Source of the DNA: a virus
Direction: 5' to 3' (one strand)
DNA length: 57,517 nt
Virus record (IMG/VR): IMGVR_UViG_3300034375_010865
Coordinates: 1-57,517 of that record
The position numbers and the translations under genes are program-made. A model generated the notes under the pieces. The model worked only from the letters and a program-made list of their open reading frames with translations, was not told the origin of the DNA and ran no database searches. Positions 48,497 to 57,517 of this stretch are shown in pieces. How positions within the stretch are numbered: the stretch's first letter is position 1; each line of letters opens with the position of its first letter.

Positions 48497-49084
48497 ATGG
48501 CAAGCTTATTCGATAAGTTAGAACTGGAAGCGTTTCGTGCCGGTATTACACCACGATCACGCCAATCCATGGCATGGTTTCGTAGAAAAGCATCCCAATT
48601 AAAACCAAGTCGATCAGGACTTCTCAAAGATCCGTCACTGACTTTGGCTAATAGACCTGCTATTGGCGGCATGTTTATGTATTTCTATGATCCAAAGACT
48701 AAAGACACATTGCCTTATTACGACAGGTTTCCATTAACTATTATGGTAGGACCTGCTCCAAAAGGATTCTATGGTTTAAACCTGCACTATTTGCCATTAG
48801 ATATTAGAGCAAGATTCTTAGATTCGCTGCTTGACACTATAAATAATAAACGATATGATGAGACTACAAGATTTAGAGTATCATACGACATGTTGAACAG
48901 AGCATCTAAGCTTAGAGCGTTTAAACCTTGTTTCAAGAGATATTTGACTTCTAATATTAGATCCAGACTTGCCCGTGTTGATGCTCCTGAGTGGGAGATT
49001 GCAACATTCTTACCGACTGCTGACTTTGAGAAAGCTTCGAGCAGAACAGTGTACAGAGATTCTAGAAGAAAGATGGTAGCTTAA
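48497..49084 (+). CDS. Conserved T4-like virion protein, possibly gp2 (DNA end protector)
   Basis: 195 aa. It contains AGITPRSRQSMAWFRRKASQ, GGMFMYFYDPKTKDTLPYYD, RFPLTIMVGPAPKGFYGLNL with HYLPLDIRARFLD, and KPCFKRYLTSNIRSRLARVD. I know this as a conserved protein beside gene 4 in marine T4-like phages. In T4 gene 2, the DNA end-protecting tail-pin protein, lies next to gene 4, so gp2 is the best positional guess, but I cannot align it to T4 gp2. It is strongly basic, which fits DNA contact. It overlaps gene 54 by one base (TAATG). Confidence 0.6.
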   Translation: MASLFDKLELEAFRAGITPRSRQSMAWFRRKASQLKPSRSGLLKDPSLTLANRPAIGGMFMYFYDPKTKDTLPYYDRFPLTIMVGPAPKGFYGLNLHYLPLDIRARFLDSLLDTINNKRYDETTRFRVSYDMLNRASKLRAFKPCFKRYLTSNIRSRLARVDAPEWEIATFLPTADFEKASSRTVYRDSRRKMVA

Positions 49085-49887
49085 TGGCGAGTATTGAAAC
49101 ATTAAAATCAAACATTGCTAGAGGTTTTGCCAAAGCAAACCGGTTTGAAGTACAACTGCCACCTTTAAACAGCATTCCTAAAATTACAACTAGTAGTATC
49201 ATTGACTTTATTACAGGTGAACAAAACATTTCGTTCGATCTGGGTGGAGTAATCGACACCGTTGCAGATGTAGTTCCTGAGTTTTTGATTGATGCTGCAC
49301 TACAAAGAGTTGGCATTGAGAGAACTGCAGTTCCTCCTCAAGACCTTGGTACTATACCAGGCCTTTCGTTTGGACCTAGGATTGATCTGGATGAGTCTAG
49401 AAGAACTTCTTTGTTCTGTACGTCCGTCAACATGCCCGGTAGACAGATGACAACAACAGACAGAAGTATCGGCATGGTTACACAGGCGATGCCATACGGA
49501 TTTGTCAATGATGAAGTACAAATGGTCTTTAGACTTGATCAAGACTATACTGCATACAGATATTTTTGGGAATGGCAAACCAGAATTCTAAATCCCAATA
49601 ACTTTGAGATGGGATATAAAAAAGAATACGCCAGAGACGTGACAATCTCCCAGCTCAGTCAAGAAGATGATAGCACAGTCTATAAGGTAAAACTGAGGGA
49701 TGCTTTCCCCAGAACCGTTAATGCCATTCAGCTGGCAGACGCAAATAGTAACGTTATCACTGAATTGACCGTAGATATAGCATACACCTATTGGGAACCG
49801 GAAAACGTCAATCAGATTATTGGCGGCAAAAACACACCACAGATTCTTAGAACCTTGGGTGAAAGAGTAGTTGAAGCATTTAATTAA
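49084..49887 (+). CDS. 54: Baseplate tail-tube initiator gp54-like
   Basis: 267 aa (T4 gp54: 320). It has the tube-protein fold pattern: KANRFEVQLPPLNSI at the start, a loop region, LFCTSVNMPGRQMTTTDRSI, VNDEVQMVFRLDQDYTAYRY with FWEWQTRILNP, and LRDAFPRTVNAIQL ... ELTVDIAYTYWEPE. This is shared by gp54, gp48 and tube protein gp19. A tube protein gene would normally sit with sheath gene 18, and here the context is hub and tape-measure genes, so gp54 is preferred. It would polymerise on gp48 to start the tube. Confidence 0.68.
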   Translation: MASIETLKSNIARGFAKANRFEVQLPPLNSIPKITTSSIIDFITGEQNISFDLGGVIDTVADVVPEFLIDAALQRVGIERTAVPPQDLGTIPGLSFGPRIDLDESRRTSLFCTSVNMPGRQMTTTDRSIGMVTQAMPYGFVNDEVQMVFRLDQDYTAYRYFWEWQTRILNPNNFEMGYKKEYARDVTISQLSQEDDSTVYKVKLRDAFPRTVNAIQLADANSNVITELTVDIAYTYWEPENVNQIIGGKNTPQILRTLGERVVEAFN

Positions 49888-49906: not shown

Positions 49907-50641
49907 ATGTTACCAAAACTTAATGATACCATGCAATATACCATGGTAATTCCTTCACAGATGAAAGAAGTCAAATTCAGACCGTATCTTGTGAAGGAAG
50001 AAAAGACAATGATGTTGGCACTTGAGTCAAATGACGCCAGACTTGTCTTAGATACTATTGCATCTACGGTGGAAAGTTGTCTGATTGACTATGAAGGTAG
50101 TGTCAGAAAGCTGACGACCTTTGATATTGAATATATGTTCTTACAGATTCGTTCTAAGTCTGTCGGTGAATCTGTTGAGTTAAACGTTTCATGTCAGGAA
50201 TGTCAACATACTCAGCAGCACACCCTGGAGTTTGATAAGATCAAACCTCCTGTTGTAAACAAAAAGCTAAAGACCCTAATCGAGATCACTGATACGATTA
50301 AGATTCAGATGAAATATCCGTCATATGTGGATCTGATGAACAGTACCTCAGGTGAAGTCTCAGGATCTGAGAATGAAAAAGCGCTTTCGACTATATTCAG
50401 TGCAATCATCTCCTGTATCGACTATATCATGGTAAACGATGAGGAAAAGATCTCGGCTGAAGATTACACATATGATCAACTGGTGGAATTCATTGAACAG
50501 TTTACGTCCGCTCAGTTCAACAAACTAAAAGAGTTTATTGTTTCAGTTCCAAACCTAGAACATGCAGTTAAATGGAAATGCGGAAGCTGCGGTCATAATA
50601 ATGAAGTCGTAATGAGAGGAACTACTGATTTTTTTCAATAA
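49907..50641 (+). CDS. 26: gp26 family protein: baseplate hub / tail assembly chaperone
   Basis: 244 aa (T4: 208). It matches the T4 gp26 family: MLPKLNDTMQYTMVIPSQMK, EVKFRPYLVKEEKTMMLALE, then a helical core and VESCLIDYEGSVRKLTTFDI. Two CxxC pairs (C96/C99 in SCQECQH and C225/C228 in KCGSCGH) look like a split zinc ribbon. The last codons read GAT TTT TTT CAA TAA, giving a T TTT TTT slippery site six bases before the stop codon (see 50629-50635). It sits two genes upstream of the tape measure, as tail assembly chaperones do. SD: TTGGAG before the ATG. Confidence 0.87.
   Translation: MLPKLNDTMQYTMVIPSQMKEVKFRPYLVKEEKTMMLALESNDARLVLDTIASTVESCLIDYEGSVRKLTTFDIEYMFLQIRSKSVGESVELNVSCQECQHTQQHTLEFDKIKPPVVNKKLKTLIEITDTIKIQMKYPSYVDLMNSTSGEVSGSENEKALSTIFSAIISCIDYIMVNDEEKISAEDYTYDQLVEFIEQFTSAQFNKLKEFIVSVPNLEHAVKWKCGSCGHNNEVVMRGTTDFFQ
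50614..50635 (+). promoter_or_regulatory. Candidate programmed -1 frameshift site in gene 26
   Basis: GAGAGGA (50614-50620) is an SD-like stimulator, followed after 8 nt by T TTT TTT at 50629-50635 in the gp26 frame. A -1 slip leads into an open frame (codons from TCA at 635) that runs into the 51-like ORF through SISLSHND. The product would be about 306 aa. Confidence 0.65.
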
Positions 50642-50658
50642 GTCTCTCCCATAATGAT

Positions 50659-50826
50659 ATGATTAATTATTTTAAAACCAATTTCCACCTGATGCAACAT
50701 CATAAATACTCTTTAGGCGAAATTGAAAATATGGTACCTTGGGAAAGAGACATCTATATCATGTTGTTAAACGACCATCTAGAACAAGAATTAGATAGAC
50801 AAAAGCAACAACAACAAAGAAGATAG
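50659..50826 (+). CDS. 51: gp51-like ORF, probable C-terminal part of a gp26 frameshift fusion
   Basis: 55 codons from the ATG at 50659: INYFKTNFHLMQHHKYSLGE, then NMVPWERDIYIMLLNDHLEQ and a Gln-rich basic end. It resembles the small 'gp51' hub-assembly ORFs annotated after gene 26 in marine T4-like phages. No SD precedes the ATG (cccataatgat), unlike genes 26 and 29. The frame is open upstream back into the T7 run, in the -1 frame relative to gene 26. Best reading: expressed mainly as a gp26-51 fusion, like lambda gpG-T. Independent start at low level is possible. Confidence 0.7.
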   Translation: MINYFKTNFHLMQHHKYSLGEIENMVPWERDIYIMLLNDHLEQELDRQKQQQQRR

Positions 50827-50829
50827 CGA

Positions 50830-52797
50830 ATGACCACCTTAGAAGACGTCATTGTCCAGTTACAAACCAACTCAGATAATACAGTTGCAGCTACTGAAGC
50901 TTCGACTGAAAGTATCGTTGGTTCTTTTCAATCTAACTTTACCACGCTTATCGACACGATCAGGGGTGATAGTTTAGATAAACTGGAAGCTACACGAGAA
51001 GCCAATAGAGCTGCACGCCAAGGTGCACCTGGAGCAGGTGGACTGTTGGCCGGTGCTGGTGCTGGGGCAGGCGGACTTCTGGGTGGACTCGGAGGTCTTT
51101 TAGGAGGTTTGGGCGGTATTGGTGCAGGCGCTGGCGGTTTAGGTGCCGGTTTAGGTGTACTACTCGGTGGTGCTGGAATCGGTGGTGGAGCTTTACTTGC
51201 TGGAGGTGGTATTGGTTTAGCCGGTTTAGCAGCTCTTTTATTGTCTATTAATAATTTAGATGGTAAAAAAGTTCGTGCCAATGTCAATGAGATCCTTGCT
51301 ATTAAGGATGACGTTGATGGTGTAGGAGATGTTGCAGCTGTAGGAATTACACTTGGTGCTTTAGGTGCAGGATTAATTGCATTCTCCGCAGGTTCTGCAC
51401 TAGCTTCTGTTTCTTCTGGAATGGCCGAAGGTGTAGAACTATTCACTAAAAGCAATTGGGCTGAAACAGTAAAACAAAATGTATTGACTCTACTTTCTAT
51501 TGGCGATGAGTTTCGTTTAGGTGAATTACAAGTGTTAGCTGAAAGCGGTCCGCTCGCTTTAGCTCTAGGAGGCCTTGGAATAGGCCTCGCCGCGTTTGCT
51601 GTAGGTGAAGGACTAGCAGCTAGTTCCCAAGCTATTTCACATTCAGTTGAAATGTTTACTGGACAAAATTGGGCAGAGTCTGTCAAGAATAATGTATTGA
51701 CACTTTTATCGATCGGCGACTCTTTTAAAGGCGGTGAAGTTCAGGCTGCATTTGAAAGCGGAGCATTAGCAGTAGCATTAGGAGCTTTGGGAGCTGGATT
51801 AGTTGCTTTTTCCGTAGGTGAAGGAGCGGCTGCAGCTGCTGGGGCAATGTCGGGTGCTTTAGAATTATTCACTGGACAAAACTGGGCAGAGTCTGTAAAA
51901 CAAAATGTACTGACGCTTCTCTCTATTGATGATGCTTTAGGTGGCACACTCAATATGTTGGGTGAAACAGCGCTTTTCACCGGAGCAATGACAGCAATTT
52001 CTGCTGGCTTAGTAGCTTTTGCGGTCGGTCAGGGTGCCAATCAAATGACTCAAACCTTGGATTTATTTGGTGAAAATGGATTTGCTCAAACAATTAAAGA
52101 TAATGTAGTCACGCTTCTTTCAATTAACGAATTAGCAGATGAAGGTCAAGCTCTTGAGTTCTTGGAAGCAATGACATCGATGAGCGCAGGACTTGCTTTA
52201 TTTTCTGGGGCTCGGTTGTTTGAAGGTCTGGTCACTGCTGGTAAAAACATTTTAAACTTTTTTAGTGGCGGTGATAAAAGTGCTATTGGTCAAGTAATGA
52301 AGCTGGCTGAGTCATCAGATGATATTGAAAAGGCATCTGATGGATTACAATCGATGTCTGATGCTTTAACTAGGTTTGCTGCTATTGATTTCAATGTAAA
52401 AGATGCTGACTTTACAGGACTAACTAGAAACATTCAAAAAGCAGTACCGCTGATTCAAAGTCTAGCAACTGGTGAATCTAAGCTTTTGGGAAAAGACATT
52501 CCATCTATTTTTGACCCAAGTTTGCGTTTAGATGAAATGGTTGTTGAAATTGGTAAGATTCGTGCAATATTAGGTGCTTCTGTAGAAATTAGTACTGTGG
52601 CTCCAAACCAAGTTTCTATTCCTGCAGATCAATTGAATGCTACTCAGAATCGGACTATTCAAGCACAAGCAGCCAATGTATTTAACAATGTTATAACTGA
52701 TGCATCTGTTAATACTCAATCTACAAATACTATTGTTAATGGTTCTAGTCAAACAGCAAGCGTGTATGACGAGAGAATGAGAATAATGTCTGGTTGA
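50830..52797 (+). CDS. 29: Tape measure protein (gp29-like)
   Basis: 655 aa (T4 gp29: 590). N-terminus MTTLEDVIVQLQTNSDNTVA, then a Gly/Ala/Leu-rich hydrophobic stretch (residues 66-140). Residues about 145-470 are five repeats of about 70 aa: FTGQNWAESVKNNVLTLLSI followed by ALGALGAGLVAFSVGEG. The C-terminal 180 residues are helical, ending in an Asn/Thr-rich tail. Hydrophobic, helical, repeated and directly after the chaperone-like 26/51 genes: this fits a tape measure that sets tail length. SD-like AAGAAG before the ATG. No sequence match to T4 gp29 is visible. Confidence 0.72.
   Translation: MTTLEDVIVQLQTNSDNTVAATEASTESIVGSFQSNFTTLIDTIRGDSLDKLEATREANRAARQGAPGAGGLLAGAGAGAGGLLGGLGGLLGGLGGIGAGAGGLGAGLGVLLGGAGIGGGALLAGGGIGLAGLAALLLSINNLDGKKVRANVNEILAIKDDVDGVGDVAAVGITLGALGAGLIAFSAGSALASVSSGMAEGVELFTKSNWAETVKQNVLTLLSIGDEFRLGELQVLAESGPLALALGGLGIGLAAFAVGEGLAASSQAISHSVEMFTGQNWAESVKNNVLTLLSIGDSFKGGEVQAAFESGALAVALGALGAGLVAFSVGEGAAAAAGAMSGALELFTGQNWAESVKQNVLTLLSIDDALGGTLNMLGETALFTGAMTAISAGLVAFAVGQGANQMTQTLDLFGENGFAQTIKDNVVTLLSINELADEGQALEFLEAMTSMSAGLALFSGARLFEGLVTAGKNILNFFSGGDKSAIGQVMKLAESSDDIEKASDGLQSMSDALTRFAAIDFNVKDADFTGLTRNIQKAVPLIQSLATGESKLLGKDIPSIFDPSLRLDEMVVEIGKIRAILGASVEISTVAPNQVSIPADQLNATQNRTIQAQAANVFNNVITDASVNTQSTNTIVNGSSQTASVYDERMRIMSG
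51433..52239 (+). repeat. Tandem ~70-aa repeats in the tape measure gene
   Basis: Four clear units start at residues 202, 273, 344 and 410 (period 71, 71, 66), each 'x-E-L-F-x-x-x-N-W-A-E-x-V-K-x-N-V-L-T-L-L-S-I'. A degenerate fifth precedes them at about 140-201. DNA copies have diverged, so the duplication is old relative to the fibre repeats. Confidence 0.85.
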
Positions 52798-54994: not shown

Positions 54995-55804
54995 TTAACT
55001 CTCCCTAAACACTTTGTGTATATCTCTCAATAGATTTTTACCTTCGTCACGCTTACGCTGGAACACATTGCGTCCTACAATCATACCGTATCCACCATTC
55101 TTGGCAATTGCTTCTGCTTCCATTAGGATTGCTTCAGTACCACGCCTAGAGCCACCAGAGAAGACCACAGGAATACCACATGCCGCTTTAACAATACGGT
55201 CTACACGGATGCATAAGTCTGCAATGTTATCATACTCAGGAAGCTTGACCTTGATCACGTCTGGTTCCAACTGTGCAGCAATGTATGCTGCATGCATTAT
55301 AGTCTCAAACGAGATAGGATTGAATTCACCTCCACGTGGATATGACCAAAGAATAGTCTTAGCGGTCGGTGATGCATGTGTCTTAATCTTACCAAAGTAA
55401 TTGATCATTTCGTCTTGATCAAGCGATCCAGGATAAATTGTGTATCCAATGCCACCCATTCCTTGAGCTGCAGCTGTAGTTGCATAGACTGCTTGAGTCG
55501 GATCAAGCCAGTCATTCAGATTGTTACCATGATTTAGTTTCATAATGATATCCGGTGCTAAATGCGGATACCAAAACTTTAATAGGTTAGCAGTACGCTG
55601 TGGTAACGCCGTAGCACCAACCAAACCTTTTTCCAACAACTCAGCGATATAGTCAACCTGATAATCTACATCCAACATCTCAGGATGATCGGTGGCATAA
55701 AACGCAGAATGTGGTCCGTGTTCTACTCCTTGATCAATAGGAAGGATGATAGTGTAGTTACCTTTTTTACCGAAATCTGGTTCACATAAACGCTTGTGTT
55801 TCAT
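54995..55804 (-). CDS. fbaB: Class I fructose-bisphosphate aldolase (FbaB/DhnA type)
   Basis: 269 aa (E. coli FbaB 350; archaeal enzymes about 260-280). Motifs: LPIDQGVEHGPHSAF (residues 21-35, E. coli VLPVDQGFEHGPARSF), PDVIKVKLPE with the probable Schiff-base lysine K185, VVFSGGSRRG and MIVGRNVFQRKRDEGKNLLR (E. coli LISGRKAFQRPMAEGVELLN) for phosphate binding. It should interconvert fructose-1,6-bisphosphate with DHAP and G3P. All key motifs are intact, so it is likely active. As an auxiliary metabolic gene it may redirect host carbon flow during infection. Strong SD (GAGGGAAGAG). It overlaps the 53-aa gene by 23 nt. Confidence 0.88.
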   Translation of the reverse strand: MKHKRLCEPDFGKKGNYTIILPIDQGVEHGPHSAFYATDHPEMLDVDYQVDYIAELLEKGLVGATALPQRTANLLKFWYPHLAPDIIMKLNHGNNLNDWLDPTQAVYATTAAAQGMGGIGYTIYPGSLDQDEMINYFGKIKTHASPTAKTILWSYPRGGEFNPISFETIMHAAYIAAQLEPDVIKVKLPEYDNIADLCIRVDRIVKAACGIPVVFSGGSRRGTEAILMEAEAIAKNGGYGMIVGRNVFQRKRDEGKNLLRDIHKVFRES

Positions 55805-56852: not shown

Positions 56853-57517
56853 CTATGCTGCGACTGCAAGTTCAAGTGCCTTTTTCTTGACATTGGCGTT
56901 AGTGCCGTACCAAGAGGACTGAAGACGGTTATCGTTGTTGCGACCGAGAGTGTGGTCGGTCATGTAGGTGACAGTGTTGAACAGCTGCCAAAAAGTACCT
57001 TCACCAAGCTCTGCACCAGCCTGGGTGTGCATGACTTCCTGAGCTTCACGAGCCTTGTAGGAAGCTTTCTCACCAGCAGAAGGGAATACCTGGTTGAAGT
57101 AGTCGACCATCTGCTCAGAGGTGTAAGTCTTCTGGCAGAGGTACTCAGCCGCTTCCTTATAGGTTTCCAGCTTCTGGTGAGCCATGCCGAGGGTTTCCAT
57201 AGCAGTAGCTGCATCGAATGGAGTCTGGTGACCCATACGGACGTAGTTGTCTACTTGCTGGTCGATAGAGAGGGTGAGAGTGTTGTTGCACACCACACGG
57301 ATTGGAGTAAACCGTACGTCGATTGACTTACCGTATTGGTGTGGGTTGGAGAAGAGGAGGTAGGATTCTACAGTGTCTTCGCCTTGTGGAGTCTTGATGG
57401 TGAAACCATCGTTGATCTTAGCCAATGCCCAGACCATCTTACCACCTTTGAGGGAGCCAGCGGTGTGCATCTGCATGTCACCGGCATCCACAAACTGACG
57501 GAAGAAGTCAAAGGCTT
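56853..57517 (-). CDS. DUF932 phage/plasmid-like protein (partial, runs off right edge)
   Basis: At least 221 codons; the frame stays open to the edge (AFDFFRQFV before the internal GTG at 57491), so the N-terminus is missing. SLKGGKMVWALAKINDGFTI, then FTPIRVVCNNTLTLSI and a helical C-terminal half (YKEAAEYLCQKTYTSEQMVD; FWQLFNTVTYMTDHTLG) match DUF932 (TIGR03299-like), widespread in phages and plasmids and of unknown molecular role. Codon use looks more GC-rich than the fibre genes, as expected of an expressed non-structural gene. Confidence 0.85.
   Translation of the reverse strand, partial: AFDFFRQFVDAGDMQMHTAGSLKGGKMVWALAKINDGFTIKTPQGEDTVESYLLFSNPHQYGKSIDVRFTPIRVVCNNTLTLSIDQQVDNYVRMGHQTPFDAATAMETLGMAHQKLETYKEAAEYLCQKTYTSEQMVDYFNQVFPSAGEKASYKAREAQEVMHTQAGAELGEGTFWQLFNTVTYMTDHTLGRNNDNRLQSSWYGTNANVKKKALELAVAA

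Follow-up and report, generated by a model that had tools for sequence, protein, structure and literature searches.

In the virus record IMGVR_UViG_3300034375_010865, a programmed -1 ribosomal frameshift at the heptamer T TTT TTT very probably yields a short and a long version of a single tail assembly chaperone. The probability of this reading, which is drawn from sequence comparison, is estimated at roughly 0.95. The window is the whole stretch of DNA analysed, 57,517 nt in length. The features relevant to the frameshift are as follows.

49084 to 49887, + strand: tail tube protein (gp19-like; PF06841 E 7e-07, phrog_45 E 4e-39)
49907 to 50641, + strand: gp26 ORF, the predicted short form (TAC-N), 244 aa, ending in ...GTTDFFQ* (PF12322, phrog_150, AlphaFold)
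50614 to 50620, + strand: Shine-Dalgarno (SD)-like GAGAGGA, 8 nt upstream of the heptamer (anti-SD pairing peak, 51 clusters)
50626 to 50628, + strand: -1-frame TGA that bounds the shift on the upstream side
50629 to 50635, + strand: slippery heptamer T TTT TTT (T TTT TTN in 50/51 clusters)
50635 to 50826, + strand: -1 frame extension (TAC-C), 63 aa, SISLSHNDMINYF...QQQRR* (homologues in 51/51 clusters)
50639 to 50641, + strand: TAA, the 0-frame stop of gp26, one codon past the heptamer
50659 to 50826, + strand: 51-like ORF in the form expected from a gene caller (its ATG lacks an SD)
50830 to 52797, + strand: long Ala/Gly/Leu-rich ORF of 655 aa, tape measure candidate (position and length)

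In the proposed mechanism, most ribosomes would terminate at 50641 and release the short form TAC-N of 244 aa. A minority would move back by one base at the heptamer, both of whose codons can re-pair with Phe tRNA, and the SD-like sequence 8 nt upstream would assist the slippage. The slipped ribosomes would continue to 50826 and produce the long form TAC-NC of 306 aa. By analogy with gpG/gpGT of lambda, coating of the tape measure protein would fall to the short form and recruitment of tail tube subunits to the long form, and neither would remain in the virion. The occurrence and efficiency of the shift in vivo, the part played by the SD-like element, the chaperone function and the assignment of the 655-aa ORF as tape measure are inferences.

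The end of the gp26 gene reads GAT TTT TTT CAA TAA, which places T TTT TTT at 50629-50635 in the gp26 frame. The -1 frame is open from the heptamer into the 51-like ORF, with 65 codons after the TGA and the stop at 50824-50826. Conceptual translation of gp26 and the -1 extension gives a fusion of 306 aa. The preliminary description had given the same slip site, the same open frame and the same length, and all three were reproduced. Because of the TGA at 50626-50628 and the TAA at 50639-50641, the shift is possible only between 50629 and 50641. The junction of the predicted fusion reads GTTDFF-SISLSHNDMINYFK, and the predicted tryptic peptide across it in the window is GTTDFFSISLSHNDMINYFK. There are six runs of seven or more Ts in the 57.5-kb window (GC 40%); thus the run by itself could be due to chance, but its conservation is not. 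The T run is kept in the near-identical IMG/VR contigs L001 and L002, the ones among L001-L003 that reach the site, and also in L004/L005, which are 71% identical. A homopolymer error is therefore excluded.

A scan of IMG/VR and further scans yielded 122 distinct frameshift-type loci, which fall into 51 clusters of single-copy homologues at <70% identity. Already in the first scan, the heptamer was present at the gp26 end of every locus reaching that point, with one variant (L079). Scans with gp26 of Vibrio QD01, T4 or Rhizobium as the query returned few loci. The comparison of gene 26 3' ends, which the preliminary description had proposed as a check, showed T TTT TTN in register in 50 of the 51 clusters and an open -1 frame in all 51. 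The last base of the heptamer in these 50 clusters is T in 24, C in 20, A in 4 and G in 2. The lone exception is L079, with G TTT TTT. The extension is 56-68 aa long and homologous in 51/51 clusters, one of them cut by the contig end, and its consensus is SLSHDxLxNYYxTNFxLMQHHKYSLxExExMxPWERExYxxLL. The codon usage around the slip site is biased. The codon preceding Phe-Phe ends in T in 50/51 clusters, where pooled usage predicts 61% (log10 P about -10.8). For the first Phe, TTT is used in 51/51, against a predicted 70% (log10 P about -8.0). Both tests are based on pooled codon usage and treat the clusters as independent. Outside the 51 clusters, L090 (Vibrio phage D524, 3540-3600), a homologue of the single-copy type, has A CTT TTC and no heptamer. 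Its sequence is TCA CTT TTC AAG TAATGG, and the TAATG overlap may indicate reinitiation in place of frameshifting.

The same site was observed in the cyanophages P-SSM2 and S-PM2, Pelagibacter HTVC008M, Caulobacter Cr30, Delftia phiW-14, Sinorhizobium phiM12, Pseudomonas pf16, Vibrio QD01, Aeromonas AS-zj and Rhizobium IC12. All the deposited frameshift-type records that were examined show gp26 and gp51 as separate genes or lack gp51, and a joined CDS is present in none of them. The long chaperone is consequently missing from those annotations.

The gp26 ORF shows a full-length match to the Pfam family T4_baseplate (PF12322; E 1.2e-55, 189.1 bits against the curated cut-off of 24.5) and a match to phrog_150 (E 4.4e-56). 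For the 51-like ORF, the PHROG matches are phrog_634 (E 3e-25) and, at E 3.5e-5, the C-terminal end of phrog_150, which suggests that some members of phrog_150 are fusions. T4 gp51 is such a fusion, matched by phrog_150 from end to end, and the extension in the window aligns with the C-terminus of T4 gp51.

Phages with two copies serve as an internal control. There are two PF12322 genes each in T4, RB43 and Erwinia IT22, and one each in seven frameshift-type records. Neighbouring genes 26 and 51 are also found in the Aeromonas 31, Proteus, Krischvirus and Acinetobacter records. T4 gp26 ends in KEFFELL, with the same Phe-Phe as the short form, but the codons are TTC TTT and there is no heptamer; likewise, Erwinia IT22 encodes Phe-Phe as TTC TTT without a heptamer. 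The T4 case indicates that Phe-Phe can be retained, and the heptamer dispensed with, in phages that do not need the frameshift. T4 gp51 corresponds to the long form and carries the homologous extension in frame. The unrooted tree cleanly splits the gp51 proteins from the frameshift proteins, with a separate branch for each. RB43 gp26 has a long branch and its placement is unsure.

GAGAGGA lies 8 nt before the heptamer, as the preliminary description stated, and its suggested role as a stimulator is supported by codon-level tests. Across the 51 clusters, the anti-SD pairing shows a peak about 7 nt before the heptamer, with a mean of -5.9 kcal/mol versus -1.2 kcal/mol elsewhere in the genes. The signal exceeds that of synonymous recoding (z -6.2) and that of other [KERQ]-Gly codon pairs of the same genes (p 7e-5). 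The [KERQ]-Gly residues are also present in several gp26 proteins of two-copy phages, so the signal is partly driven by the protein sequence. It is the codon choice that speaks for an SD. Selection acting on codons to maintain an internal Shine-Dalgarno-like element is possibly new.

The folding energy is low just past the heptamer in many lineages, with a mean z of -1.48 at +5 nt versus about -0.3 elsewhere in the gene, and z is below -2 in 41% versus about 10% elsewhere. This downstream hairpin signal is absent from the clade of the window (z +1.4), so that only the SD-like element would act as stimulator there. Because the stem is lineage-specific, the idea that a downstream hairpin stimulates frameshifting universally was rejected. 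A GCCTCT...AGAGGC hairpin starts about 6 nt past the heptamer in seven loci (L142, L155, L166, L175, L182, L188 and L198). A compensatory change from GCCTC:GAGGC to GCCTG:CAGGC (L198 and L184) occurs in one clade, which is too little for a stronger claim.

Three other explanations for the locus were weighed and rejected. One of them treats the 51-like ORF as an independent gene, with translation starting at the ATG at 50659 through coupling or reinitiation after the gp26 stop. This is very improbable. An in-frame ATG does lie 18 nt past the gp26 stop in the window, and gp51 has been deposited as a separate CDS, for example in P-SSM2. However, the ATG at 50659 has no SD of its own, in agreement with the preliminary description, and is probably not a real start. 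As for the neighbouring genes, which were said to have SDs, gp26 has one (GGAG), but the ORF at 50830 has only a poor one (AAGAAG), weaker than claimed. No ATG is found within the first 12 codons of the extension in 41/51 clusters, and a start preceded by an SD within its first 20 codons is found in only 1/51. The SLSHD stretch is conserved as protein although it lies upstream of the first start. A separate gene also leaves the fixed heptamer unexplained, and it does not fit T4 gp51, which is an in-frame fusion.

Slippage of RNA polymerase on the T run, generating mRNAs of altered length and from them the long form, is less probable still. The window has a run of seven Ts, but T TTT TTC in 20/51 clusters and an A or G end in six clusters leave six Ts. 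Polymerase slippage generally takes longer runs than six Ts. Extension of the run is consistently 5' (50/51) and not 3', a pattern expected of tandem tRNA slippage, and polymerase slippage gives the SD-like element no role. The least probable explanation, to the point of being negligible, is that the Ts merely encode a conserved Phe-Phe in an AT-rich genome and that the open -1 frame is a product of chance or a sequencing artefact. Phe-Phe is indeed conserved in gp26, and the low GC content and the other long T runs of the window agree with such an origin. Against it, T4 and Erwinia IT22 retain the same residues as TTC TTT, both codon tests at the slip site deviate strongly from pooled usage (log10 P -10.8 and -8.0), all clusters conserve the -1 product as a protein sequence, and independent contigs agree. 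Ribosomal frameshifting at the heptamer is the preferred reading.

The AlphaFold model of gp26 is confident, with a pLDDT of 90.7. Its highest-probability match in PDB is the tail assembly chaperone of HK97 (2ob9), but the match is weak (probability 0.75, E 0.52, TMt 0.40). The likeness of the predicted fold to the HK97 chaperone is not significant and can be taken as suggestive. Profile and phmmer searches revealed no sequence relatives among solved structures. The predicted fold (49907-50638) seems to be built from two halves that resemble each other, and a strand pair bearing a CxxC-type knuckle closes each half. The knuckles are CQECQH and CGSCGH, and they are missing from some relatives.

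The 655-aa ORF showed no Pfam match and no meaningful PHROG match. A long ORF follows the extension in most relatives, and the one in the window is a candidate tape measure protein from its place and size. It is unusually Ala/Gly-rich and contains repeated segments of the type NWAESVKQNVLTLLSIGD. The fold match of gp26 and its place between the tail tube gene and the long ORF fit the gpG/gpGT scheme. The idea that gp26 and gp51 form a frameshift-linked pair of tail assembly chaperones, put forward in the preliminary description, has received strong comparative support and weak support from the fold. Behind the annotations "baseplate hub" and "baseplate hub assembly catalyst" there is probably a tail assembly chaperone.

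Two other genes of the window were noted, both on the - strand.

54995 to 55804, - strand: DeoC/LacD-family aldolase (PF01791 E 4.9e-23), possibly an auxiliary metabolic gene of the fructose-bisphosphate aldolase type
56853 to 57515, - strand: DUF932 protein (PF06067 E 1.2e-37), truncated at the end of the contig

A wider proposal is that the TAC frameshifting of T4-like phages is tuned by a conserved, codon-selected internal SD-like element and by a hairpin starting about 5-8 nt past the heptamer in several lineages other than that of the window, while the T4 branch has the pair of genes 26 (short) and 51 (long) instead. We consider the chances for and against this proposal to be even. The use of one frameshifted gene or two separate genes among T4-like phages constitutes a natural test of how the ratio of short to long form is set. 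If the proposal is true, two regulatory solutions to one dosage problem could be compared inside one phage group.

Frameshifting is reportedly conserved in several groups of T4-like phages, and T4 is said to use genes 26 and 51, according to the abstract of the study on these chaperones. The preliminary description did not recall such a frameshift being described for T4-like phages, and on this point it was wrong. The paper on Pseudomonas phage Adele (PMC12846349), in a citing passage, credits the poly-T -1 signals in the TAC-N genes of some T4-like phages to Vladimirov et al. 2022 (Virology 566:9-15). The PRFect paper (PMC10885494), also in a citing passage, refers to the same study for T4-like phages in which the short and the long form have a gene each. 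These secondary citations indicate that the locus belongs to a known kind, and the claim of novelty fails. An earlier review (PMC5009743) describes the G-T frameshift as widespread except in T4.

Several known systems resemble the locus. E. coli dnaX has an SD-like sequence upstream of its slippery heptamer, A AAA AAG, and a stable downstream hairpin. The window shares the upstream SD-like sequence with dnaX, but no hairpin was found in its clade. The heptamer of lambda is G GGA AAG, while that of the window is T TTT TTT and has a conserved SD-like element upstream. The chaperones of lambda (gpG/gpGT) and other long-tailed phages (Xu, Hendrix, Duda 2004) are alike in consisting of a short protein and a -1 extension, encoded between the tail tube gene and a long ORF in the tape measure position. 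The chaperones of T4-like phages in Vladimirov, Gautam, Davidson 2022 share the gp26/gp51 family as TAC-N/TAC-NC and the poly-T -1 signal in TAC-N; within the passages of PMC10885494 and PMC12846349 through which that study is known here, no essential difference was found. In the Pseudomonas phage Adele (Vandenendeviridae), the passages of PMC12846349 describe TAC-N as having a conserved poly-T -1 site at its end, with an open -1 frame, but the motif is GTTTTT and the phage belongs to another family. T4 genes 26 and 51 belong to the same protein family, gp26 resembling the short form and gp51 the long form. T4 differs in having two divergently oriented genes and no frameshift, with the extension placed in frame in gp51.
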